From an uncultured Parvularculaceae bacterium (GTDB taxonomy: Bacteria; Pseudomonadota; Alphaproteobacteria; Caulobacterales; Parvularculaceae), in NCBI GenBank assembly GCA_913055785.1, contig CAJXLJ010000005.1, positions 62,001-126,000 on the forward strand: DNA of 64,000 bases, read 5' to 3'. Made by a program: the position numbers and the translations under genes. The notes beneath the pieces are model-generated. The model did no database searches. It was given only the letters and a program-made list of their open reading frames with translations, and was not told where the DNA came from. Positions within the stretch are counted from its first letter, which is position 1. Each line of letters begins with the position of its first letter. This document shows positions 44,743 to 61,186 of the stretch, piece by piece.

Positions 44743-44762
44743 TGATTTATGGTGCGCTTGCG
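44743..44762. repeat. attL: 20-bp direct repeat, left copy
   Basis: TGATTTATGGTGCGCTTGCG, identical to 53755-53774. The two copies enclose the integrase, AlpA-like gene and cargo, 9,032 bases from the start of one to the end of the other. Confidence 0.8.
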
Positions 44763-44795
44763 TGACTCGAACACGCGACCCCATCATTACGAATG
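44750..44795 (-). other. tRNA-Thr(CGT) 3'-half fragment
   Basis: On the minus strand it reads from CATTCGTAATG (anticodon loop TTCGTAA) through a complete T arm (GCGTG TTCGAGT CACGC) and acceptor 3' strand AAGCGCA to CCA. The 5' half (acceptor TGCGCTT and D arm) is absent: upstream sequence does not pair with the acceptor or anticodon stem. Therefore a 3' remnant or integration-site copy, not a working tRNA gene. Confidence 0.7.
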
Positions 44796-44899
44796 TCTGG
44801 TTCACCGATTCCCCTGCATTCCCACCCATCCCCGAAAGCGCCAAAAACATAGATAAAATGGGCATTTCTTTGCCTTGCGATTCCCCGCGATAGACCCCA

Positions 44900-44941
44900 T
44901 TTGGTAGCGCAGTGGTAGTGCAGAACGCTTGCGCTACCAAA
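44900..44941. promoter_or_regulatory. Inverted repeat upstream of integrase
   Basis: TTTGGTAGCGCA (44900-44911) and TGCGCTACCAAA (44930-44941), perfect 12-bp arms, 18-base spacer. It contains the left arm-type repeat TGGTAGCGCAGTGGTAG. Probable integrase-binding or integrase-autoregulation site. Confidence 0.65.
44902..44918. repeat. 17-bp inner repeat, left copy
   Basis: TGGTAGCGCAGTGGTAG, identical to 53678-53694. Inside the element at both ends, 140 and 60 bases from the respective 20-bp cores, as expected for integrase arm-binding sites. Confidence 0.7.
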
Positions 44942-44966
44942 AGCTACCACCCTGCGGAGGCGGACG

Positions 44967-46172
44967 ATGGCCGGAAAACTCACGAAACGACTTGTTGATG
45001 CAGCCAAGCCGGGCGAGACGATCTGGGACGGCGAAATCAAGGGGCTGGGCTTGCGCGTGTGGGCGAGCGGCGCCCGCAGCTATATTCTCAAATACCGGCG
45101 CGGCGGCGTGCAGCGGTGGCTCACCATCGGCCAACATGGCGACGGCTGGTCGCCCGAAAAGGCGCGCAAGGAAGCCGAACGCCTCAAGGGAAAGATTCGC
45201 GACGGCGTTGATCCGGCGCTCGACGCCAAAATAGAGCGGGAAGCCGATTCCTTCGACGCCTTTGCGGATCGTTATCTCGCCGACTATGCGAAGAACCACA
45301 AAAAGGCGTCCACCGTCCGTGAGGAAACCCGGGCGCTGAAAAATCACATCCGCCCGGCGCTCGGGAAATATCGCGTCAAGGATATTCAGCGCGGCGACAT
45401 TGCACGCTTTCATCAAGGCATGAAGGCGACGCCATACGCGGCCAACCGGTACCTCGCCCTGCTCTCCCACATGTTCAATATCGCCGAGGACTGGGGGTTG
45501 CGTCCCGAAAACACCAACCCCTGCCGCCGCGTCAAAAAATACAAGGAAAAGGCGCGGGACCGTTTCCTGTCCCCTGAGGAACTGGCGCGGCTCGGCAAGG
45601 CGTTGTCCGCAGCGGAAACCGCCGGGGAGAGCGTCTATGTGATCGCCGCAATACGCCTGTTGCTGCTCACCGGCGCCCGTCTTTCTGAAATCCTCTCGCT
45701 CGAATGGGAAGAGGTCGATTTCAAAGCGTCCATGTTGCGGCTCTCCGACTCCAAAACCGGCGCCAAGACTATCGCCCTGCCTGCGCCTGCGCTTCAAATC
45801 CTCAACGATCTTCCGCGCCAGGATGATAACCCGCACGTCATATGCGGCGCCCGTGAAGGCGCGGCGCTGGTCAATCTGCAAAAGCCGTGGCGGCGCATCC
45901 GCGCAGCCGCGAAGCTGGAGGACGTGCGGCTGCATGACCTGCGCCATTCATTTGCGAGCGTCGCCGCTGCGGGCGGCATGTCGCTGCCTCTCATCGGCGC
46001 GCTTTTGGGCCATACGCAAGCGCAGACTACTCAGCGCTATGCTCACTTGGCTGACGATCCGCGCCATGCGGCGGCGAATGTAGTGGCGGAGAGGATCACC
46101 TCTAACATGCGTGGAGAAGAGACAATGGTATTCCATCTAAATCGCCCACAAAACCGCCTCACCTCAAAATAG
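44967..46172 (+). CDS. int: Tyrosine-type integrase with DUF4102 N-terminal domain
   Basis: 401 residues. N-terminal DUF4102 arm-binding domain (KRLVDAAKPGETIWDGEIKGLGLRV...SPEKARKEAERLKGKI), SAM-like core-binding domain (FADRYLADYAKNHKKASTVREETRALKNH) and catalytic domain with the full set: R in LTGARLSEILSLEW, K in LSDSKTGAKTIAL, HDLRHSF, and GH...Y nucleophile in LLGHTQAQTTQRYAHL. Mediates integration and excision of the 9-kb element. It is followed by a terminator. Confidence 0.96.
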   Translation: MAGKLTKRLVDAAKPGETIWDGEIKGLGLRVWASGARSYILKYRRGGVQRWLTIGQHGDGWSPEKARKEAERLKGKIRDGVDPALDAKIEREADSFDAFADRYLADYAKNHKKASTVREETRALKNHIRPALGKYRVKDIQRGDIARFHQGMKATPYAANRYLALLSHMFNIAEDWGLRPENTNPCRRVKKYKEKARDRFLSPEELARLGKALSAAETAGESVYVIAAIRLLLLTGARLSEILSLEWEEVDFKASMLRLSDSKTGAKTIALPAPALQILNDLPRQDDNPHVICGAREGAALVNLQKPWRRIRAAAKLEDVRLHDLRHSFASVAAAGGMSLPLIGALLGHTQAQTTQRYAHLADDPRHAAANVVAERITSNMRGEETMVFHLNRPQNRLTSK

Positions 46173-46255
46173 TAGGAGTGCGTCAGAAATTTTGTACTGC
46201 CGCAGATTTTCGCGCACCGGATCGCCCGGATGCGCGGCGCCATAGGAAGCAATGG

Positions 46256-46305
46256 AATCCAGTGTAATCCAGTATAATTCAGTGGAACCCAGAGTAACGC
46301 CGTGT
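46256..46305. repeat. Five tandem 10-bp repeats between int and alpA-like gene
   Basis: Units AATCCAGTGT, AATCCAGTAT, AATTCAGTGG, AACCCAGAGT, AACGCCGTGT in register, decaying to the right. The 10-bp period matches one helical turn, so a protein could bind all units on one face. No gene occupies this 283-bp gap. Confidence 0.7.
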
Positions 46306-46362
46306 ACGGTTGAACGGTTACTTGTAATGAAGCGCACCCAGTGCGGGGAATAATATATAGCG

Positions 46363-46392
46363 CCGGCTGTCTTTTCAGCCGGTGTTTTTTTT
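46363..46392 (+). terminator. Rho-independent terminator after integrase
   Basis: CCGGCTG (46363-46369), loop TCTTTT, CAGCCGG (46376-46382), then GTTTTTTTT-type run to 46392. Confidence 0.8.
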
Positions 46393-46455
46393 GATCTTAA
46401 GGGTGCTGTTGAAACCGCAGCGATTCGGTGCGGCCAAAAAGAAAGGCGAGATAGC

Positions 46456-46659
46456 ATGAAACAAATTTGGACAGCACGAGCCGCAGCTGAGCGCCTCGGG
46501 CTATCCGTGTCCACTTTAGCGAAATGGCGCGTCGCCGGGGAAGGTCCAAAATGGATCAAGCTCGGAAACGCCAAGGTTGCGTATGATGAGGCCGATCTCA
46601 TCGAATGGCTGGACTCTAGAAAAAGACAGTCAACGAGTGAGCCAGCCGATGCAGCATAA
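46456..46659 (+). CDS. AlpA/excisionase-like helix-turn-helix protein
   Basis: 67 residues with a MerR/HTH_17-like DNA-binding core: WTARAAAERLGLSVSTLAKWRVAGEGPKWIKLGNAKVAYDEADLIEWL. Such proteins control integrase expression or act as recombination directionality factors. It lies after the integrase and next to the 10-bp repeats, which are candidate binding sites. Confidence 0.85.
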   Translation: MKQIWTARAAAERLGLSVSTLAKWRVAGEGPKWIKLGNAKVAYDEADLIEWLDSRKRQSTSEPADAA

Positions 46660-46668
46660 AAAAACGCC

Positions 46669-46695
46669 CCGGTGGTCAGCTGGCACTGACCCCGG
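46669..46695 (+). promoter_or_regulatory. Hairpin in the leader of the small cargo genes
   Basis: CCGG-T-GGTCAG, loop CTGGCA, CTGACC-CCGG. No T run follows, so it is more likely a leader structure or attenuator than a simple terminator. It lies between the AlpA-like gene and the 58-residue ORF. Confidence 0.4.
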
Positions 46696-46740
46696 AGCTA
46701 ACCTTCCATCCCCCTCCAATCACAGAAGGAATTGAAAAGC

Positions 46741-46914
46741 GTGAGCGTCTTACAAGACATGTACGAAGAGGGCAATCGCCCCGATTCCCACAACGATAGT
46801 CTGTCAGCTTACAGGGAAAACTGGGTTCTCAGAAAATTTGGCCTCTACGGGCCTACCGGTAAATTGATCTGCACATTGGCGTTCTTCGGTGGCGACGGAG
46901 GCCCTCATGACTAA
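46741..46914 (+). CDS. Hypothetical small protein
   Basis: 57 residues from a GTG at 46741 with AAGGA about 10 bases upstream. SVLQDMYEEGNRPDSHNDSLSAYRENW, no recognised domain. Its stop overlaps the ATG of the next gene (ATGACTAA), so coupling is plausible. Only weakly supported. Confidence 0.4.
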   Translation: MSVLQDMYEEGNRPDSHNDSLSAYRENWVLRKFGLYGPTGKLICTLAFFGGDGGPHD

Positions 46915-47125
46915 GCCAACCGCCGCCCAACGAAACCCCATGCGCGCGATCCGGCGGCACTGCCTCGCCTGTTGCGGCGGCAGCGCCGTCTCCGTCACAG
47001 AATGTCCCGCCGCCGCGTGTGCGCTGTGGGCGTTCAGGATGGGCGAAAACCCATTCCGTGCGCCCGCCACCGAGAAACAGAAAGCGCAAGCCCTGAAAAA
47101 TCTAAAGGCGGCGCGGGCGGCGTAA
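46907..47125 (+). CDS. Small cysteine-rich protein
   Basis: 72 residues from the ATG at 46907. RAIRRHCLACCGGSAVSVTEC, then CALWAFRMGENPF: five or six cysteines spaced to bind zinc. Similar proteins occur in alphaproteobacterial integrated elements; role unknown. Two bases separate its stop from the next gene. Confidence 0.65.
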   Translation: MTKPTAAQRNPMRAIRRHCLACCGGSAVSVTECPAAACALWAFRMGENPFRAPATEKQKAQALKNLKAARAA

Positions 47126-47127
47126 GA

Positions 47128-47655
47128 ATGCGAACTCACAACAAGACAGGGCGGGGCAAAAATGCGCCCCGTCACGTTCGTATCTATCGCTCGATGATGC
47201 GAACAGAAGCCTGGCAGGCACTCAGCGCGGTCGAAAAGGCCGTGCTCATCGAGTTGTATGCGCTCTATAATGGCGAGAACAACGGCGAATTGTTCCTAAG
47301 TTGCCGGGAAGCTGCACGGCGCTGTCATATAAACAAGGATACAGCCTCGCGCGCATTCTCGGCGCTGGAGGAAAAAGGGTTCATTCGCCGACGTTCCAAG
47401 GCGTCAATTGATTGGAAACTTAACCTTGCCCGATGCTGGATATTGACCGAGCATCCTTTCCCCGAAGGGACGGCGCCGACAAGGGATTATCAGTACTGGC
47501 GGCGTCTAGATGATAAAACCGCGGCCCTCGAAAACGGACAGACCGCCCCCCAGAACCGGACAGGAAAGAAAGGCGCGCCGGCGGAGCGTATTCATTTGAG
47601 GGACAAATCCATAAAAAATTCGAAAACGGCGTCCATCGAAACGGGACACAGATAG
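47128..47655 (+). CDS. Winged-helix DNA-binding protein of the element
   Basis: 175 residues from the ATG at 47128. MMRTEAWQALSAVEKAVLIELYALYNGENNGELFLSCREAARRCHINKDTASRAFSALEEKGFIRRR is a winged helix resembling replication/partition-type helix-turn-helix proteins carried by phages and islands. The C-terminal third is polar and unconserved-looking. Could regulate the element; a replication role is possible but not shown. Confidence 0.65.
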   Translation: MRTHNKTGRGKNAPRHVRIYRSMMRTEAWQALSAVEKAVLIELYALYNGENNGELFLSCREAARRCHINKDTASRAFSALEEKGFIRRRSKASIDWKLNLARCWILTEHPFPEGTAPTRDYQYWRRLDDKTAALENGQTAPQNRTGKKGAPAERIHLRDKSIKNSKTASIETGHR

Positions 47656-47929
47656 TTTACCATACGCGGCAGCGTTCTTACCGGCTGAACATTCAGCGCA
47701 ACGTAAGGCGCGCGGCGCGGGGGCCGCCCAATAGCCCGAGCGCCAGCGCGCCGCCTCTCACGAGAAAACTTTAATGGGGGGCTTCACAAAAACATTCGTC
47801 TTTGCGCGTGAACCGGCCGGGATACACCGGCTGTGCGTTTCACCCCGAAAAAAGATTTGAATGAAATGGCCAATCTGTTTTTTTATCGGGCGGGAAAACT
47901 CAGGTTAGCCACATGATTTCGAGAAAATA
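47656..47929. other. Non-coding interval in the element (274 bases)
   Basis: No supported gene. Contains a GC-rich stretch at about 47708-47760, a small palindrome GCCGG gataca CCGGC near 47815-47830, then an AT-rich stretch before the next gene, probably its promoter. It does not show a recognisable transfer origin. Confidence 0.4.
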
Positions 47930-48523
47930 ATGGGCGGATGGGGCAGCGGCGGCGGACGAAACGCGACGAAAACCACGGACCTGCGCCGGATTGACCTTGC
48001 GGATTTGCGGCGGCTCAACATGCTGCGCGAATGCGGGCCCCGGCTTTTTTGCTGGTCGCGAAATGGCGAGAGCGTCGCGTCGGTGGGCGTCGAGTATCGG
48101 CGCACCAAGATCATTCTAAAGTACCGGGTCCGAGAATATGGCGGCGAATGGACGCCGATCCGGGAGGAAATTCCCCTCGCGCGTACCGCGCAGAAATTCG
48201 GCGGGGAACGCATTTGGTTTGTCTGTCCGGGCTGCGGGCGCCGTTGCCGGGCGATTTACGGCGGCGACTATTTCCGTTGCCGTAAGTGTCACAAAGCAAC
48301 TTACCCAAGCCAATATGAGGATTATTACAATCGTCTGATTTCGCGCGCTCAAGACGTTCGGATAAAACTCGGCGCCTCTGGCGGCATGGACGAACTATTC
48401 CCGCCCAAACCGAAATGGATGCGCTGGAAAACTTACCGTCGCCTTGAGCGCGACGATGAACTTGCGGGCGCGATGTTCTGGGCTATGCTAAGAGAGTATG
48501 ACCCGATAATTCGAGGCGAATGA
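47930..48523 (+). CDS. Zinc-ribbon protein of mobile element type
   Basis: 197 residues, function unknown. Starts GGWGSGGGRNATKTTDLRRIDLADL, a conserved opening of proteins carried on alphaproteobacterial islands. A C-terminal treble of cysteines (FVCPGCGRRCRAIYGGDYFRCRKCHKATYPSQ) forms a zinc ribbon. Its stop overlaps the next gene's ATG (ATGA). Confidence 0.7.
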   Translation: MGGWGSGGGRNATKTTDLRRIDLADLRRLNMLRECGPRLFCWSRNGESVASVGVEYRRTKIILKYRVREYGGEWTPIREEIPLARTAQKFGGERIWFVCPGCGRRCRAIYGGDYFRCRKCHKATYPSQYEDYYNRLISRAQDVRIKLGASGGMDELFPPKPKWMRWKTYRRLERDDELAGAMFWAMLREYDPIIRGE

Positions 48524-48936
48524 GCCCAATGTTACGACTGTCGATTGTCACCCTGATTAGCTCGATTGCGATGATAGCGCGCGCCGCCGCTGATCCGTGC
48601 GAAGCTGACCTGCCTAAACCGGGTGCCGAGTTTTCCGGCCCCGTCACTTACATCATTGACGGCGACGGTCTATGCGTTGGCAACCACAACGGTGGTATCG
48701 AGGTCCGGCTTGGCGATTTCGATGCGCCGGAACAAGGCCAGCCGGGCGCGAAGGACGCGACCGATGCGCTTCGCAAACTTGCTTTCGGCAAAAATGTAGT
48801 TTGCACATCCTGTGAGGGTGCCAGAAACCCGAACCGGTGCGTATCCTACGACCGCGTTATTGCGACCTGCCGATTGAATGGTGAACGTCTAGGCGATCTT
48901 TTGCGAGCGTTGGGCGTTCGAGAAGGCGGCAACTAG
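48520..48936 (+). CDS. Secreted staphylococcal-nuclease-like protein
   Basis: 138 residues: signal sequence, then an SNase OB-fold core with candidate catalytic positions D48 (YIIDGDG), R63 (EVRLGDFDAPE), E71 and R112 (SYDRVIATC). Two extra cysteine pairs (CTSC and NRC/ATC) suggest disulfides, so it may work outside the cytoplasm. ATG at 48520 overlaps the previous gene by 4 bases; a second ATG is at 48529. Confidence 0.85.
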   Translation: MSPMLRLSIVTLISSIAMIARAAADPCEADLPKPGAEFSGPVTYIIDGDGLCVGNHNGGIEVRLGDFDAPEQGQPGAKDATDALRKLAFGKNVVCTSCEGARNPNRCVSYDRVIATCRLNGERLGDLLRALGVREGGN

Positions 48937-48946
48937 ACAGTCGCCG

Positions 48947-49186
48947 TCACGCCGGGGTACAGCGATAGACTCTTTTGATTGCGGCGTTTTCGGCATTCCA
49001 TTTATGAAGTGCCTGCTGAACCTCGGTGCACGCGTGGTAGTCGTCCAAATACCCCGTTATGAGTATGGTCTTTTCCCACTCGCCGTACGCATTTTGAAGC
49101 TCCAACCAATAGTCACCGCTTTCTGGTAGTGACTTCCCGCAAGCCGAAAGCGTTAACAGACATGTTAGCGTCACGATTTTATTCAT
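48947..49186 (-). CDS. Small hypothetical lipoprotein
   Basis: 79 residues with lipobox LSAC at residues 13-16 (TLSACGK). The mature part contains two cysteines (CTEVQ and RCTPA) and no recognised domain. Runs against the neighbouring genes. Probably a real envelope lipoprotein of the element. Confidence 0.55.
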   Translation of the reverse strand: MNKIVTLTCLLTLSACGKSLPESGDYWLELQNAYGEWEKTILITGYLDDYHACTEVQQALHKWNAENAAIKRVYRCTPA

Positions 49187-49243
49187 AGAGATAACTCATT
49201 CCACTATAATATGATGTTCAGACTTTGAACACATACTCTGCAA

Positions 49244-49471
49244 ATGGCCACACTTACAGACTTGATACGCCACTTCGACCCGGCAACTCGCGTTGAGCGC
49301 CGCCGCCGCATCTACGCCATCGCGGATTGGTGGGCGGCATATCTGATCCAGAAGCACGGCGACAAAGCCCACGCCTTAGTAGCCTGTAGGCGTCTTCAGC
49401 TAGGTACGTCCCGAGTTCCGGCATGGCTTAGGAATCATATTTGGTGCAAGGTCGCAGAGCGGCTAAAATGA
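49244..49471 (+). CDS. Small hypothetical protein
   Basis: 75 residues, basic and helical: LIRHFDPATRVERRRRIYAIADWWAAYLIQKHGDKAHALVACRRL. Not recognised. ATG start; no clear operon partner. Confidence 0.45.
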   Translation: MATLTDLIRHFDPATRVERRRRIYAIADWWAAYLIQKHGDKAHALVACRRLQLGTSRVPAWLRNHIWCKVAERLK

Positions 49472-49544
49472 TACTTACGGCAAACTAACGTGGGTCAGTA
49501 CGCACTATGGATTTAATTAACTATAAAAACTGCATACAGACGAC

Positions 49545-50192
49545 TCATCGTCTCGCGTCCATTTTCTCGGCGTCAAAAGGGCGTTGCAGCCGCAAACTTT
49601 CCTCGCCACCGCTAAGCCATTCTTTACATTCGTCAGGCTCTGTAAGTATCACCGGCATCGCCTTTTCATGTACGGGACGCACAATATCATTGGCCTCAGT
49701 CGTAAAGAACGCATAAAGTTCCCAATCATCCTCCTCGCGGGCGCGCCTTTTCTTTCCCGGTTGTTCTTTAAGCCGTTCGCCGCGCCAAGGGCGCCAGACA
49801 CCGGCGAAGAATGCAATTTCATGTCCCTTGATCTTAAACCACGTTGATTCGCGCACTGGTTCGGCAAATTCAGTAAACGGAACAAGGCAACGATATTTTG
49901 ATTCCGTCATCCACTCGCGGTTTACGTCGCGCCACCATTTGCTTTTGAGGTTTCTGATATTTGTGATCGGCGCTTTCTGGCCGGGTATAGGCGGGAAGCC
50001 CCACCGCAACATTGCGAGTTCGAGCTTGCCCTTACCCTTCGGGCGCAAGACCGGCGCATCCTGATCGGGGAAAATGTCCGCTTGGCCGCCGTAATTCGCC
50101 GTCGCGGCGGTCGGCGCAAGGTCGTAATCCATCAATGCAGCCAAGCGCTTGATTTCGGCAATGGAACCCCGGTTTGCGTAGCGGTTGCACAT
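49545..50192 (-). CDS. SRAP-domain protein (YedK/HMCES-like)
   Basis: SOS-response-associated peptidase that forms a covalent crosslink with abasic sites in single-stranded DNA. 215 residues. The start must be the ATG at 50192 because the nucleophile C2 follows the initiator Met (MCNRYANRG). The other active-site residues are seen: N in APITNIRNL, E in LVPFTEFAEP and H in VHEKAMPVIL. A longer reading from 50228 would hide C2. Cargo of the element, probably linked with the Y-family polymerase gene that follows on the opposite strand. Confidence 0.92.
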   Translation of the reverse strand: MCNRYANRGSIAEIKRLAALMDYDLAPTAATANYGGQADIFPDQDAPVLRPKGKGKLELAMLRWGFPPIPGQKAPITNIRNLKSKWWRDVNREWMTESKYRCLVPFTEFAEPVRESTWFKIKGHEIAFFAGVWRPWRGERLKEQPGKKRRAREEDDWELYAFFTTEANDIVRPVHEKAMPVILTEPDECKEWLSGGEESLRLQRPFDAEKMDARR

Positions 50193-50329
50193 CGAGACAT
50201 TTACAGCCCACAGCGCAGTCAAAAACAAGTGATTGACTCGCCGCCCTCAGAGGCGTTTGATCCCGGTCCACCGGGCGGTGAGGATATTGGGGAACGGGCG
50301 GTCCTTTGACTGGAAGAAAGGACGTAGCC

Positions 50330-50515
50330 GTGACTATTGCCGAACTTATCGCTGAACTCGAAAAATACCCGCCTGACTTGCCGGTCGTGACCTATGTTGG
50401 ACCAGACGGCGATCCATTCGACGTGCAACATGTAGAAATACGGCACGTCCACGCGGAATACTCCCTGTGGACTGACGGGAAAGCGGACACCGACGTCAAA
50501 GTCCTTGCAATCTAA
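50330..50515 (+). CDS. Small hypothetical protein before the polymerase gene
   Basis: 61 residues from a GTG at 50330 (GAAAGGACGTAGCC upstream). TIAELIAELEKYPPDLPVVTYVGPDG, then DVQHVEIRHVHA, resembles short phage/island proteins. It lies 11 bases before the polymerase start and could be cotranscribed. Confidence 0.55.
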   Translation: MTIAELIAELEKYPPDLPVVTYVGPDGDPFDVQHVEIRHVHAEYSLWTDGKADTDVKVLAI

Positions 50516-50526
50516 GGGCGTCGCAT

Positions 50527-51780
50527 GTGCGCAAGCCGGAAACCATAGAACGGCTGTATCTTGATTTTGACGGGTTCTTTGCATCCGTCATGCAACAAGC
50601 CATGCCTGCGTTGCGGGGCCGCCCTGTCGGCGTCATCCCGTTCGAGACGGACAAGGCGAAATACACCGTTGTCATCGCGTGTTCAAAGGAAGCCAAGGCG
50701 AAAGGCATTCCAAATGTCATCGCCGTTCCCGAAGCGAAAAAACTTTGCCCCGATCTGGTGCTGGTTACACAACGGCCTGACCTTTTCCGGCGCGCACATA
50801 ACGCGCTGTTAAACGAAATCAGTTGCGAAATCCCCATCGACACCGTGAAGTCGATTGACGAACTGACCTGCCGGTTGGGGCCAAAAGACATGGCGGACCC
50901 GGAAGGCCTGGCGGCCCGGTTGAAAAAGCGGATTGCCGCTAATGTCGGGCCGCACATCACCTGTTCAATCGGGTTCGCCGCCAACCGCATGCTCGCAAAA
51001 ATCGCCTGCAAGATTGACAAGCCCAACGGTGTTACGATCTGGCGGCCTCAAGATATGCCGTCGCCTTTATTGCCGCTGCCGTTTGAAGACATACCCGGTA
51101 TAGGCGCGCGGCTGGAACGCCGACTGAACCGCGCCGGTATCTGGACCGTCGAGCATCTTTTGAAAACCCAGCCGAAGCAGCTTCGCGCGCTGTGGGGCAA
51201 CGTCAATGGCGAGCGCATGTGGTACGGCCTACACGGCTATGACGTGCAGGCGCAGCCGACGCATCGCGGCATGTATGGTCACAGCCGCGTGCTGCCGCCG
51301 GAAGCGCGTAAGCTTCATCAGTGCCGGGGCTTTGCGCGCCTGTTGCTCACCAAGGCGGCGCGCCGCATGCGCCGGGACCGTTATTATTCCAACAAGCTTT
51401 GGCTGTGGCTGGACCTTCGCGAGGGCGGATGGTTCGGGCAGCGAGAACTGCCCTGCGTGAATGACGATCAGGCGATTTTGTCCGGGCTTGGCGCGCTATG
51501 GAATGAGGCGGCGGACGAACTCCCGAAGCGGCATGAAATTGTTCGCGTCGGCGTAACCCTTACCGAAATCGTCCCCGCCGATGGGCGCCAACTCGATATG
51601 TTCCTGAACGATGACCGCGACCGGCAGAAATGGGAGCGCATCACTTTCAGTATCGACGCCCTGAACCGGAAATTCGGAAAGCGCGTCGTTTCGGTTGGAC
51701 CGTGGACGCCGCCGCCCGGCGGTTATGCAGGCGGCAAGATCGCCTATACGCGCATTCCTTCAGCGGAGGATTTCTGGTGA
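50527..51780 (+). CDS. Y-family DNA polymerase (DinB-like)
   Basis: Translesion polymerase, 417 residues from a GTG at 50527. Palm motifs: LYLDFDGFFASV with two acidic metal ligands and KSIDELTC (SIDE with catalytic Asp-Glu). Then GFAANRMLAKIACKIDKPNG, a thumb helix-hairpin-helix (EDIPGIGARLERRLNRAGIWTVEHLL) and a little-finger domain. QLDMF in GRQLDMFLND looks like a sliding-clamp-binding motif. With the SRAP gene it makes a DNA-damage-handling pair on the element; no LexA box was identified. Confidence 0.92.
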   Translation: MRKPETIERLYLDFDGFFASVMQQAMPALRGRPVGVIPFETDKAKYTVVIACSKEAKAKGIPNVIAVPEAKKLCPDLVLVTQRPDLFRRAHNALLNEISCEIPIDTVKSIDELTCRLGPKDMADPEGLAARLKKRIAANVGPHITCSIGFAANRMLAKIACKIDKPNGVTIWRPQDMPSPLLPLPFEDIPGIGARLERRLNRAGIWTVEHLLKTQPKQLRALWGNVNGERMWYGLHGYDVQAQPTHRGMYGHSRVLPPEARKLHQCRGFARLLLTKAARRMRRDRYYSNKLWLWLDLREGGWFGQRELPCVNDDQAILSGLGALWNEAADELPKRHEIVRVGVTLTEIVPADGRQLDMFLNDDRDRQKWERITFSIDALNRKFGKRVVSVGPWTPPPGGYAGGKIAYTRIPSAEDFW

Positions 51781-52031
51781 GCTGGCTTGATGACATGCAC
51801 TTGCGGGATTTGGACGATAGTCAGGCGATTGAAGCGACCTGCATGAAATGCCTGCATACATGGCTGCAAAGCCCGCTGCAGTTGCTCCTGAAAGTGGACC
51901 ACCGCGACGTGACGCTTGCGGAAGTCGCGCGCGAATTGAAATGCAAGCGCCCGCATTGCGGCCATAGCGGCGCGCGGCTGTCGCTAGTTCGGAACGAGGA
52001 CACAAGCGGCTTTGTCGGCGGGATGCCGTGA
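51777..52031 (+). CDS. Small zinc-finger-like protein coupled to polymerase
   Basis: 84 residues from a GTG at 51777 that overlaps the polymerase stop (GTGA), so it is translationally coupled. ATCMKCLHTWLQSPLQLL, VDHRDVTLAEVARELKC, KRPHCGHSGARLSLVR: a C-x2-C...C-x4-C-x2-H-type zinc site. Function unknown; possibly an accessory of the polymerase. Confidence 0.7.
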   Translation: MSWLDDMHLRDLDDSQAIEATCMKCLHTWLQSPLQLLLKVDHRDVTLAEVARELKCKRPHCGHSGARLSLVRNEDTSGFVGGMP

Positions 52032-52192
52032 TAGGTAAGTATAACGTCTGATTTTCGCCGATAACAGACTGTTCCATCTGCTGTATTTCAGATAAAAACT
52101 AATACTCTAATTTAGGAGAGCCCATTATTGACTAACTCCCAAGACGCTTTACGGTTTCAGTACCCTATATCGGTGAGGAAGAGGGAAGCGTC

Positions 52193-52699
52193 ATGAATAA
52201 TGTAAAATTGCTAATCTCGGGCGTATTGTTAGGATTCATTGCTACATCTATGGCATCGGCGAACGCAAAAGACAGCGTACTCGAAACGCGGTCAATTAGC
52301 TGCGGGGCCGACCTCAGTAATTCAATGATGGATTGGGGTATAGGTGCTAAACAATTAGAAAAAGATGCAACTTTCGTAGGGGCTTACTATCTAAAATATC
52401 GCACCGCTAGCTCGGGTAGCGTGATCTGTGTTTGGCAGCCAGCTGAAGGCGGTGTAATTGAGTACGGCGTAATATATACAAAATGTTGCAAGGAAACGGC
52501 AATACGTAAGCAGCCAGTCGGAGATAACTGGCAATCTTCAAATTTGGCAGAGGTATTTGAAATAAGGCGTGGCAAATTTTACGCCGATGAAAAAGATTTT
52601 TCGGAGATCAAAGTCTGTACTGCTAACTTAAATGAGTGCAAGTTCACAGCTACCCTTATTGAGAAGTTTATCGACAGAACAGGCGATGATTCTTTTTAG
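52193..52699 (+). CDS. Hypothetical secreted protein
   Basis: 168 residues with a signal peptide (SGVLLGFIATSMASANA). The mature part has six or so cysteines (ISCGADL, VICVWQ, KCCKE, VCTAN, ECKFT) and no recognised domain. AT-rich relative to the chromosome, consistent with transfer. The 160 bases upstream show no other gene. ATG at 52193. Confidence 0.55.
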   Translation: MNNVKLLISGVLLGFIATSMASANAKDSVLETRSISCGADLSNSMMDWGIGAKQLEKDATFVGAYYLKYRTASSGSVICVWQPAEGGVIEYGVIYTKCCKETAIRKQPVGDNWQSSNLAEVFEIRRGKFYADEKDFSEIKVCTANLNECKFTATLIEKFIDRTGDDSF

Positions 52700-52704
52700 T
52701 GCTT

Positions 52705-53559
52705 CTAGTCCGTCTTGAGTGAGTCCGTTACTTTTGCAGAATTAAGCGGCATCTCTATTGTTTTCATGGTCCGGTCAGTCTCATCGAGGACTTTGATTAT
52801 CTTCTGGTAGTGGCGAATGTCTTCAAAGGATAGCTCGCGGCCTTTGCGGTCCTTTAGCCATTTCTGTGCGGGCTGATAACCGCCAATGTGAAAGCCCCAC
52901 GCGATTTTCGGGACATTCTCGAAATACTGCGCCCTGTTGATATAAACGCGGGAATTTTTGAACGTTGGCTTATCGACGATGTTGTTCCCTTCCTCGCCCT
53001 GCACTGTTTCAAATGGATAAGGCGTATCGCCGATGGCGGCCTCTTCCATGAGGTGTAGGCGGCGCAACTGTCCTCCTTTTTCGCGCACAGACCAAAAGAC
53101 GTCCCGCGTTTCCGGCCATGGGATGCGCGGGAAGTCGATCTTCAGAAATTCCGCGTAGGTCTCGCGATGGGCCGAGCAGTGCACGACGCCGTAAATATAA
53201 TCGAAGACATCGACCTCGTTCGCCTCCTCGCCCGGCGAGGCGCCTGTGAAATGCGCGCGAGCCTCCCCCGCTTGCGGGTTAAATGTCGCCGAAGGGAACG
53301 ATGGGGGTCTTATGCTCGCCTGCTTACGCAAATTCGCATAAAGGTTTTCGTTGAAATTCACCACGCGCGACTTGTCGATGTCGCCCCGGCGGAACACGAA
53401 GTCCGGCGCTCCGACCTTTTCTCGCTTGGGTTCGTTTTGGGCTGTGACCTTCGTATGGATGCTATCAAATAGCTTCTTAAACGCTGGTCTGTAGGAATGC
53501 TCCGTAGCGTCGCCACTCTTGTGAATTTCAATTACGTCTTTAAGAAATTCCGCTAGCAT
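52705..53559 (-). pseudogene. Internally deleted type ISP restriction-modification enzyme relic
   Basis: 284 residues joining two ends of a type ISP-like enzyme (normally about 1,000 residues or more). Residues 1-62 are its N-terminus (EFLKDVIEIHKSGDATEHSY, RPAFKKL, then NEPKREKVGAPDFVFRRGD) and residues 64-284 are its C-terminal specificity domain (DVFDYIYGVVHCSAHRETYA, FLKIDFPRIPW, RVYINRAQYFENV, HIGGYQPAQKWLKDRKGREL, HYQKIIKVLDET). The E-x-K half of the nuclease, the helicase if any, and the N6-methyltransferase NPPY region are absent. The junction is near 53373 and stays in frame, so a short fusion protein could still be made; methylation would be impossible. Confidence 0.8.
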
Positions 53560-53677
53560 TTCCGCTACTCTCCAAAGTCAGCTCTTGCATTCCTAGCTTA
53601 TTTCACCCCCGGCGCACGAACCTACTTCAACGGGCTCTATGTTGGGGTTCGATTGCGTGACAAAAAAAAGTTTCCGC

Positions 53678-53694
53678 TGGTAGCGCAGTGGTAG
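53678..53694. repeat. 17-bp inner repeat, right copy
   Basis: TGGTAGCGCAGTGGTAG, identical to 44902-44918, 60 bases inside the right att copy. It is followed by a further GGTAGCGC unit at 53690-53697. Confidence 0.7.
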
Positions 53695-53754
53695 CGCCAG
53701 CAATGCGGGTTACGCATTAGGACAAGTTAGAGTGAAATTTCTGTTTAATTTCAA

Positions 53755-53774
53755 TGATTTATGGTGCGCTTGCG
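53755..53774. repeat. attR: 20-bp direct repeat, right copy
   Basis: TGATTTATGGTGCGCTTGCG, identical to 44743-44762. The sequence beyond it (GGGAAGCCAACAAACAACGC) differs from the tRNA-derived sequence beyond the left copy. Confidence 0.8.
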
Positions 53775-53886
53775 GGAAGCCAACAAACAACGCAACCTGC
53801 TGTATTATTTCAGCAATTCAGATCGAAAAATTTTCGATACCCCCAATTATACCCCCATACGGATTTAACAGAATCAAAGCGTTCTT

Positions 53887-55149
53887 TTAATGGTTTTCGC
53901 CCCGAATTACTTCTAGCAGCGGGCCACATGCGATCCAAGTTCTCGCAACATAATCCAGCGCCTCGGGCTTTCGCATTCCATCGCAAGTCCGATACGGAAA
54001 CCATGCTCCGATTTGCGTCTGAAAGTTGGATTTTTTCCTTGCAAGGCAATCATAGATAGCCTCCAGCCATTGTGGTTGCGCTTTAGGCGGCCCTTCGTCC
54101 TCGAAACACGTCCGCAGATCAAAATTTATCACTGCATCTTCGAATGGCACTGAACGCTGAGATGGATAACGCCTTTGAACAGCGTGAAAGCGCGGCTCCA
54201 TGCCGGGACAGTCACGCATGATCGGCTTCATATTTGTGAGTACCGTACGCACGAGTTCGCGAAAACCATCCCGTCCGCGTCCCACCAGTCGCTTTAAAGC
54301 GGGCCGACGTAGCGCATTCGGCATGGTAACCATCGCAGATAATCTTGTGCGGTGAATACCAAGCGTCAGATGTGGAGCGCGCGTAAAATTACGTTCTTCA
54401 TCTGCATCGTTCGTTTGCAAGAAATCCCAGACGGAGTCCGCATCACGCCCCGTAATCGCGGAGCGTCCTGACAAATGTGGATTCATTCCAATTTCCGCTA
54501 TTAGGTCTTTTCGAGCTCGCAACTCGGTCATTGCTAGCCCGAGCAATCTTTTCGCTTCTGTGTACGAAAATTGTTTATCCTCGCTGAAATCTATGCCGTT
54601 AAATGCCGTCATTGTTCCTGACCGAAGCTGTTCTTCATTGACGAGGCGGCCCTCTATGACTTCAAGGTAATCCGACACTCGCTTTGCCCATACATGATTA
54701 TCTGAGAAGTTTAGCAGCCATTTGTAGACGGCGCGCCATTCAACCACCTTTGCCAACGGCGCTATCTCTGGAGCAGCGGGCTTAATAGTAAGAAGCAAGA
54801 TATTTGGTTCGTCAAAACCCAATCTATTAGCTATCTCACGATGGCGGGTTAGCTGGTCCGCAGATGCGTCACTCAGAACCTTGTTCTCGATCACTACACA
54901 CCAACAATCGCCATCAGTGATCCAGGCATCAGGTATCCCATTACTTATTGCGTCGTCCTCAGCCATCTGAGGCTGTCCTGGAAAAGATTGTTCGCACACC
55001 TTTAAGCGGTTTGCTTTCTTTGGCGGTTGAACCCCTACTATTTCATGTAGAAATGCGGCGAGCAGACGTCGGTCCTCATTAAGCGCCGTTACAAACGCAT
55101 GCGTCACCTTGTTTTCAGGTTGGTTGTATTGATCAAAAACATTTCTCAT
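53887..55149 (-). CDS. PD-(D/E)XK nuclease-like protein of the RM locus
   Basis: 420 residues. The nuclease core is residues 70-105: GIPDAWITDG with D74, then WCVVIENKV with E88 and K90, and SDASADQLTRHREIA, the pattern of the PDDEXK_4-like family. N-terminal ENKVTHAFVTALNEDRRLLAAFLHEI is also typical. The C-terminal half is unrecognised and may recognise substrate. Last gene of the hsd operon, 43 bases after hsdR. Not a known type I subunit; a defence role is inferred from position. Confidence 0.75.
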   Translation of the reverse strand: MRNVFDQYNQPENKVTHAFVTALNEDRRLLAAFLHEIVGVQPPKKANRLKVCEQSFPGQPQMAEDDAISNGIPDAWITDGDCWCVVIENKVLSDASADQLTRHREIANRLGFDEPNILLLTIKPAAPEIAPLAKVVEWRAVYKWLLNFSDNHVWAKRVSDYLEVIEGRLVNEEQLRSGTMTAFNGIDFSEDKQFSYTEAKRLLGLAMTELRARKDLIAEIGMNPHLSGRSAITGRDADSVWDFLQTNDADEERNFTRAPHLTLGIHRTRLSAMVTMPNALRRPALKRLVGRGRDGFRELVRTVLTNMKPIMRDCPGMEPRFHAVQRRYPSQRSVPFEDAVINFDLRTCFEDEGPPKAQPQWLEAIYDCLARKKSNFQTQIGAWFPYRTCDGMRKPEALDYVARTWIACGPLLEVIRGENH

Positions 55150-58840: not shown

Positions 58841-59815
58841 TCAGTCCGCCACCGGTTCAAGGTCGCGGATGCGGGGCCGGAATACGCGAGAGAACAGTTC
58901 AAGTTTTTCCTGCATCCAGTTCATATAATCCTCGCGGCGCGAGGCGTCTAATGGGTCGACATCTTGTCGATAAAGGACGATCCGCGAGGCCTTGCGCTCC
59001 GGGAGTTCCATCCACTCCAGCGAGACGCCAAGCCCCTGTTCTATTTCCGCCTTTTCCGCGCGCAGGGCATGAAAATAACCCTTTGCGTTTTCGTCATTCA
59101 GATTCAATTGGACGCCAATTCTACGGGACCGGCTGTCCAGCAGTCCTTCAATAAGAAAGCCGGTGCGGCCTATACTGAAAGACATCCAGTGTTGTGGCTG
59201 AGGTTTTTTGCTGCGAATGATACTCTGGGAGGTTTCGAGTTGATCGTTAAAGGCGGCCCAGAAATCGAGTTGAGCCAGATTTGTTTCTGAGAGCGCTTCG
59301 CTTTCAATACGCCGGGCTGCCGCCGATACTGAGCGGGACCAATCGTTCGGTTTCGAGACGATATTGAATTTTGGCGCGGCGGGGCTGTCGCTTATTCGCC
59401 ATAACTCCACTTCCAGTCCGAAAAAACGAAACTTCTCATCCGTGATCTCGTTCAGCCAGTCGAGGGTGGCGCGGTGTTCCGCAGTGAATATTGAGGCGAT
59501 CCAGACGATGGTGACCGCTTGAAGTCCGGCGGCATAGGTAAGCAACTGCCCAAGGTGGATATGGTCTGTACGCTCTAACTGGTTCTCAACCAGCACCCAT
59601 GAACCGTCGTCCGTGTCTTTACAGAGAATATCCGCCCTGAAGGGGCCGACAAATTTCTCCTGCGCTTCCAATTCCAAGTCGATGTTCAGCGCAGAGGCGA
59701 GTTCCGACAGGTTCTCCTCTCGCGCGAGCCATGGGGTGAAGTCTTGCGCTTCTGTTTTCCAGATGTCGCGCAGGTCGACACGCTGAAAGCGGCCCAGTTG
59801 AGATTGGTTGGTCAT
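58841..59815 (-). CDS. DUF4268 protein of the RM operon
   Basis: 324 residues. N-terminal half is PD-(D/E)XK-like (ALNIDLELEAQEKFVGPFRADILCKD, VLVENQLERTDHIHLGQLLTYAAGL), with E-N-Q where E-x-K is expected, normal for this family. The C-terminal half is DUF4268 (HWMSFSIGRTGFLIEGLLDSRSRRIGVQLNL, LYRQDVDPLDASRREDYMNWMQEKLELFSRVF). It often accompanies type I RM genes; biochemical role unknown. Confidence 0.82.
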   Translation of the reverse strand: MTNQSQLGRFQRVDLRDIWKTEAQDFTPWLAREENLSELASALNIDLELEAQEKFVGPFRADILCKDTDDGSWVLVENQLERTDHIHLGQLLTYAAGLQAVTIVWIASIFTAEHRATLDWLNEITDEKFRFFGLEVELWRISDSPAAPKFNIVSKPNDWSRSVSAAARRIESEALSETNLAQLDFWAAFNDQLETSQSIIRSKKPQPQHWMSFSIGRTGFLIEGLLDSRSRRIGVQLNLNDENAKGYFHALRAEKAEIEQGLGVSLEWMELPERKASRIVLYRQDVDPLDASRREDYMNWMQEKLELFSRVFRPRIRDLEPVAD

Positions 59816-59830
59816 GCTTTCCCCTTGACG

Positions 59831-61186
59831 CTATCGCTTTCGCTTTATCGTGGACTTGCCCTTCGGCTTCATTTTAACGGTCTTTTTCTTCGTCGCTTTC
59901 TTCGTTGTTGTCTTCTTTTTTGCAGGCCGCTCCGGGTCACGCATAGACGCCTGCTGCGCGAGATACTTTTCGCGGTATAGGGCGACGATTTTATCAACCA
60001 GAGCGCCTGCGACTTCGCCAGCGCCTAATATGGAGAGGAGCCGGGAAAGCTCCAGCCGCAGTCTTGCGGTGGCGGAGGCCCGGTTTGGCCAATCAATGAC
60101 CGCGACTTCGCGGTAATGTTCATCAATTTTTTCCGCCCATTCGGTAAGACGCTCTGCGCTAAATTCACTGCCGCTGAGGAGTTCCGATAAAAGTTCAAAA
60201 ACAGCCTCTTGCTGGCTGGCGCTATGCGATAGGATTTTGGTTGGGCTAACGCGGTCGATCTTTTCTCTGGCCGCCAACTCGCGCTGGGCTTTTTCCTCTT
60301 CCGCGCGTTCAAACAGAAACCTGTCCAGCCAATCGTTGCAGTATTCCGATGCGCCACCCGGGTCGGGAAAGAGGCTCGCGTGGTGGATATTCATTTTCCA
60401 AAGCATCGCAAGGCAACCCTCGCGATCTTCGTTCGGGATATGGATTTTGCAAATATACCGGGCTAGGTCTTTCGCCCGCTCTGCATCCTGAACCTCGCTG
60501 ACCGTATCCTCGGTCGCCTGCTTGTAAGTTACATCATCGACTTGTGTCGCTCCCATTTCATCAAGCTGATTGATCAGGTAAGAGACAAAATTATCATTGT
60601 CTGATGGCGTCAAAGAGAACAGTCCCGCCTGATTAACGAGGCGCGCATTTCCGTTATGGCGGGGCTCTACAACGAGACTGTTATCGATCTGCTTGAGCGC
60701 AGTCATGTTCAGACAAAATACGGCTCGTGACGGATTGTCTTTTTCTTCTGGCCGGTCCGGGTTCGTAAAGGCAAAAAACAACGCGACAAAGGGGGATCGT
60801 GTCCAATCAATGAGCGGGGTGCGCAATCCATGATGCTGGCCGAATGCCCAGACCTCTTGCTCATCGACATCGTTGAGGTCTGGTCCACGACCTCGCATTG
60901 CCAAGATGAATTTTTCTTTGAGTTCTTCGCGGGCTTCTCTGAGGATCGCTCCGCCCCTAAAGCGCCGCGCGAGTGTAGACGATAACTGCCAATCATATCG
61001 GCGGTGTCCGCGATAGACCATCTCCGTATTGGCTTTGTTGTGTTGTTGGTCTTGCATCACCTCGATGAACTGTTGCCAGCTTTCCACCCGGCATGAGGGC
61101 AACAAGTCATCGGTCTCATTATTAGGCAGACTGAAATTCGGCCATATCGGCAACGATTGGAAATAAGGTTCGTTATCCGGTGTCAT
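59831..61186 (-). CDS. FRG-domain protein of the RM operon
   Basis: 451 residues. FRG domain at about 55-140: MVYRGHRRYDWQLSSTLARRF with the F/Y-R-G motif (58-60), then WAFGQHHGLRTPLIDWTRSPFVALFFAF. The rest is helical and ends in a strongly basic tail (about 35 residues dominated by Lys, KKKTTTKKATKKKTVKMK), which could bind nucleic acid. FRG proteins occur in defence loci; their activity is not established. Its ATG overlaps the hsdS stop by 4 bases. Confidence 0.82.
   Translation of the reverse strand: MTPDNEPYFQSLPIWPNFSLPNNETDDLLPSCRVESWQQFIEVMQDQQHNKANTEMVYRGHRRYDWQLSSTLARRFRGGAILREAREELKEKFILAMRGRGPDLNDVDEQEVWAFGQHHGLRTPLIDWTRSPFVALFFAFTNPDRPEEKDNPSRAVFCLNMTALKQIDNSLVVEPRHNGNARLVNQAGLFSLTPSDNDNFVSYLINQLDEMGATQVDDVTYKQATEDTVSEVQDAERAKDLARYICKIHIPNEDREGCLAMLWKMNIHHASLFPDPGGASEYCNDWLDRFLFERAEEEKAQRELAAREKIDRVSPTKILSHSASQQEAVFELLSELLSGSEFSAERLTEWAEKIDEHYREVAVIDWPNRASATARLRLELSRLLSILGAGEVAGALVDKIVALYREKYLAQQASMRDPERPAKKKTTTKKATKKKTVKMKPKGKSTIKRKR

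Follow-up and report, generated by a model that had tools for sequence, protein, structure and literature searches.

A Type IIG restriction-modification gene shortened in frame by an internal deletion, a probable young pseudogene bordering an integrative element in an uncultured Parvularculaceae bacterium

In the Type ISP enzyme LlaGI, recognition loops I–III are located in the methyltransferase, while the TRD contributes loops IV (residues 1223–1230), V (1324–1331), and VI (1365–1374) together with a jaw helix (PMC4872093). The TRD core extends up to residue 1440 and is followed by a guide (1440–1578) that takes no part in target recognition or base reading, three of its residues contacting the DNA backbone (PMC4872093). 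In LlaGI (5ffj) and LlaBIII (4xqk), as in Type ISP enzymes generally, the chain includes an SF2 helicase-like ATPase. The closest helicase-less enzyme with a solved structure is DrdV (7lo5, 7lvv), and a further related group is the Type IIG family PDLC03610. Here, these enzymes are compared with a short open frame found in a 64,000-nucleotide stretch (the window) of contig CAJXLJ010000005.1 from an uncultured Parvularculaceae bacterium (assembly GCA_913055785.1, positions 62,001 to 126,000).

The frame starts with an ATG on the minus strand and remains open over 284 codons, as described in the initial annotation; its features and those of its surroundings are listed in Table 1. It had been read as the first 62 and the last ~220 residues of a type ISP-like enzyme, and a search for full-length homologues was used to locate the deletion. 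A genome of the same genus (G002) carries such a homologue (1081 aa, L014:3346-6591, minus strand), a member of the PDLC03610 family that matches both ends of the short frame: residues 1–61 correspond to about residues 11–71 of the G002 protein (start at 10 or 11; 82% identical), and residues 62–272 to residues 870–1081 (73% identical). When the G002 protein was searched against the genome, it gave two exactly abutting matches in one frame (C5:115377-115562 and C5:114744-115376), the two pieces measuring 61 and ~211 residues. Relative to G002, 798 codons (2394 bp; residues 72–869) are absent and the frame is kept. The short frame is the only parent-related sequence in the whole genome, and the missing middle (~800 residues) was not found elsewhere in the assembly, orphan contigs included. 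No long repeat was seen at the breakpoints in the comparison with G002, in which the DNA identity (only ~75%) is too low to judge microhomology. The stop codon used in G002 has been lost through an apparent one-base gap, leaving a tail of 12 residues, although tails are variable across the family.

Table 1 Features of the short open frame and of the element that carries it (window coordinates)
Feature	Position	Strand	Remark
Left attachment repeat	44743..44773	plus	inside copy of the tRNA-Thr(CGT) 3' part
Tyrosine integrase	44967..46172	plus	of the 9-kb element carrying the short gene
Read-through tail	52705..52743	minus	past the G002 stop-codon position; DNA alignment
Short open frame, 284 aa	52705..53559	minus	Type IIG restriction-modification gene after an in-frame internal deletion
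C-terminal piece, residues 62–272	52744..53376	minus	TRD core end (two helices) and guide
Guide subdomain, approximate limits	52756..53085	minus	part with the highest prediction confidence
Palindromic dispersed repeat, 48 bp, REP-like	53264..53311	no strand	inside the open frame
Deletion junction, codons 61/62 (± a few codons)	53376..53377	minus	comparison with G002
N-terminal piece, residues 1–61	53377..53559	minus	first part of the PD-(D/E)XK nuclease domain
GGAGAG, possible ribosome-binding site	53568..53573	minus	8 bases before the ATG; sequence
Right attachment repeat	53755..53785	plus	of the 9-kb element

The full-length parent belongs to the Type IIG enzymes, has no helicase, and ends in an ISP-type C-terminus. 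Its best PADLOC model was Type IIG (PDLC03610, 990 bits), and Pfam matches in this protein and in three other full-length relatives comprised N6_Mtase/Eco57I/MmeI_Mtase together with Type_ISP_C, while no helicase was matched in any of these four proteins. The SF2 helicase-like ATPase that marks a Type ISP chain is thus missing from the parent family, and the initial label of a type ISP-like parent holds for the C-terminus only. Of the parts said to be lost, the completion of the nuclease and the methyltransferase are indeed absent, whereas a helicase is not part of the parent family, and its loss from the short frame was therefore rejected. The parent profile aligned along the nuclease, methyltransferase, and TRD of DrdV (237 bits), a complete enzyme in contrast to the short frame.

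In the full-length alignment, the invariant columns (G002 numbering) were D63, E77, and K79 in the nuclease, D396–G402 in the AdoMet motif, and N517–Y520 in NPPY, and of these the short frame retains a single D. This residue, D53 (G002 D63, the D of 'GAPDF'), belongs to the nuclease site, from which E77 and K79 (the E-x-K of 'HCEAK') have been deleted, and the PD-(D/E)XK catalytic site is consequently incomplete. The deleted interval also holds the methyltransferase motifs DPATGTG and NPPY and the equivalents of LlaGI loops IV–VI; no methyltransferase was matched by Pfam in the short frame, which does not qualify as a gamma-class N6-adenine methyltransferase. The short frame therefore differs from the other PDLC03610 enzymes in having no nuclease E-x-K, no methyltransferase, and none of the TRD portion that reads bases. 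With 798 codons absent compared to G002, its active sites are deleted relative to an intact homologue, as in a restriction-modification pseudogene.

The junction was placed on solved structures by aligning the full-length family profile to LlaBIII, DrdV, and LlaGI. The 'YLYP' strand precedes it, and its equivalent position is near residue 1380 in LlaBIII and residues 1386–1390 in LlaGI; for the latter value, the numbering of the 5ffj chain and that of LlaGI were taken to differ by 164, as derived from the same profile alignment. Given the positions of the loops and the jaw helix in LlaGI, all recognition elements lie in the deleted part: loops IV–VI are upstream of the junction, and the short frame does not possess a TRD with base-reading loops. 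What is left of the recognition domain consists of two core helices and the guide; the C-terminal TRD helices and the guide are homologous to those of LlaGI and LlaBIII, which the predicted fold also matches. The guide was predicted confidently by AlphaFold2 (blocks with pLDDT 88–97, except for one at 72), the junction region poorly, and a Foldseek search against the PDB returned significant E-values for LlaGI, LlaBIII, and DrdV only. The Pfam match of the short frame is restricted to positions 149–341 of the 342 in Type_ISP_C (the last 56% of the profile), as compared to 1–341 in the parent, which contradicts the claim that the full C-terminal specificity domain was retained. A 'specificity domain' label should not be equated with DNA binding, as the Type_ISP_C match in this case is confined to a part with no role in reading DNA.

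The short frame is the last gene of a 9-kb segment that begins with a tyrosine integrase and is bounded by a 31-base repeat (at 44743 and 53755), the first 20 bases of which are identical, with 0 such repeats expected in shuffled sequences. The intact tRNA-Thr(CGT) is located at C5:130238-130313 (also given as L021:3338-3413). A second segment, which has its own integrase next to the tRNA and a gene reading as pheT (both named from sequence), contains the Type I locus (hsdR, hsdS, and hsdM with genes for DUF4268 and FRG-domain proteins) outside the repeat. The 3' end of tRNA-Thr(CGT) appears to be occupied by two tandem integrative elements, one at 44743-53785 and the other at C5:115785-130313 (window position 53785 onward), each with its own tyrosine integrase. 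From the repeats and the two integrases, we infer that the Type I locus is part of the neighboring unit and not of the element with the short gene. The reported position at the very end of the element beside an intact Type I locus was correct insofar as the short frame lies at the (inner) element edge next to that locus, but the locus itself is beyond the bounding repeat. The 9-kb element additionally carries divergent SRAP (SOS-associated peptidase) and Y-family DNA polymerase genes as cargo (49545-51780).

A second short form was not found by protein search in 28 genomes of the genus, 62 of the family, and 398 of the order, nor was there any match over 80% of the query in plasmids or any short form in phages, the single relative on a viral contig being a long frame. 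Searches with the Pfam Type_ISP_C model recovered no recurrent short form in 385 genomes of the class, and viral contigs yielded none either. Among those short Type_ISP_C frames of the class sample that were inspected, the ones of G463, G473, G489, and probably G450 were cut by contig ends, those of G474 and G431 were split genes, and those of G421 and G625 were assigned to neither category. In the order sample, 15 single-frame full-length relatives of the close type were found alongside 7 broken ones (window copy included). In G374, residues 10–145 are joined out of frame to residues 1031–1081 (L063:2027-2631), an independent collapse that leaves ~136 N-terminal and the last ~50 residues, the C-terminal scrap still being 84% identical to G002. 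Only the N-terminus is present in G203 and only the C-terminus in G268 and G309, while the relative in G232 is split and the frame of that in G224 is broken early. These copies, together with one in Gramella sp. AN32 (L005), are truncated, split, or collapsed like the short frame, but their breakpoints all differ and, unlike the short frame, none keeps its frame across an internal deletion. A literature search on the decay of Type IIG genes yielded nothing directly on point; the at least 7 broken copies in the sampled order provide a further example of the decay of single-chain restriction-modification genes on mobile elements.

The phylogenetic tree groups the short form and G002 as sisters (support 0.99 in the C-part), and the branch of the short form is the longer of the two in both the C-part (0.196 vs. 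0.082, 2.4x) and the N-part (0.161 vs. 0.052, 3.1x). The polarized amino-acid changes numbered 14 on the short branch and 5 on that of G002 (one-sided p = 0.03; one genome of the species), and conserved positions were altered in 5 out of 77 cases in the short form vs. 0 out of 64 in G002. The overall pN/pS between the two was 0.10/0.81, and since synonymous sites are saturated (pS 0.81), the low pN is mostly a record of evolution that preceded the deletion. Assuming neutrality of the nine excess changes, roughly 0.017 substitutions per site would have accumulated since the deletion. At this level the chance of encountering no stop codon is ~0.65 (the step from excess to age being rough), so that, for a young deletion, the open frame argues only weakly for selection.

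We consider it highly probable that the short frame is an ordinary young pseudogene of a Type IIG gene that has remained in frame by chance, in line with the simple decay that had been offered as one of two alternatives and that is favored by the uniqueness of the form among the 28 genus, 62 family, and 398 order genomes. The ancestor would have been a single-chain Type IIG enzyme (PD-(D/E)XK nuclease, gamma-class N6-adenine methyltransferase, and TRD with an ISP-type C-terminus), its gene being the last one carried by a small integrative element. A single deletion of ~2.4 kb would then have eliminated the latter half of the nuclease site together with the linker, the entire methyltransferase, and the TRD portion that reads bases, with the ends joining in frame by chance (1 in 3). 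As cutting and marking reside in one chain, cutting and protective methylation would have been lost together and the deletion would not have been toxic. The product, if made, would consist of a folded guide and loose N-terminal helices, incapable of cutting, methylation, or sequence reading. The join, its frame, the missing parts, the uniqueness in the sampled genomes, and the recurrent breakage in relatives are established, and we infer that the short frame is under no selection and that the deletion is recent. What speaks against a pseudogene are the 284 open codons, a plausible ribosome-binding site, the guide that is predicted to be well folded (pLDDT mostly ~90 or more), and the low overall pN/pS.

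The open frame, the possible ribosome-binding site, the confident predicted guide fold matching LlaGI, LlaBIII, and DrdV, and the three LlaGI guide residues that touch the DNA backbone could point to a functional micro-protein in which the folded guide would inhibit a full-length relative or serve as its dominant-negative partner, or else bind the DNA backbone without regard to sequence. We regard this as improbable, since the genome has no full-length relative that could be targeted, the form is absent from every other sampled genome, and the short branch has more changes, invariant residues among them. A specific version, in which the core-end and guide fragment is expressed and kept by the mobile element to pair with and block incoming full-length Type IIG relatives, is distinctly unlikely. 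An assembly error that dropped the middle of an intact gene also seems quite improbable: the genome is a draft of 85 contigs and the junction is known from the assembly alone, but the join sits within a 131-kb contig with no long repeat across it, and the missing 800 residues do not occur even as an orphan contig. The other alternative initially proposed, in which a sequence-specific DNA-binding protein survives and either masks sites or serves as a decoy, would be in keeping with the origin from the C-terminal part of the TRD, yet such a role is very unlikely on sequence grounds and was rejected because the equivalents of the LlaGI/LlaBIII base-reading loops all lie in the deletion and the guide is outside target recognition. 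Finally, a specificity-subunit-like partnership with the neighboring Type I system is barely conceivable, even though a complete hsdM-hsdS-hsdR set lies directly beyond the short frame and a resemblance between the guide helices and the spacer bundle of HsdS is described (PMC4872093), as the short frame has no base-reading core and the Type I locus, situated in the other tandem element, has a full hsdS (440 aa) of its own.

The palindromic repeat within the frame (53264-53311, TCCCCCGCTTGCGGG...CCGAAG...GATGGGGGTCTT, 48 bp) is read as 16 residues of the short frame. By a strict pattern search, it was detected in 11 of the 28 genus genomes and was absent from both G002 and the genome of the window, suggesting a possible passage of the short gene through a relative that bears the repeat; among six sampled relatives, the repeat was found mostly near gene ends. 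Within the Type I operon, between hsdR and hsdS/hsdM (58841-61186), a DUF4268 protein (PADLOC PDC-S11) and an FRG-domain protein (PDC-S15) are encoded as candidate embedded defence genes, the latter also having a weak match to the HsdR C-terminal domain T1RH-like_C. Downstream of hsdR, a protein of 420 aa (53887-55149) with a weak PD-(D/E)XK match (PDDEXK_4, PDC-S26) is possibly a defence nuclease.
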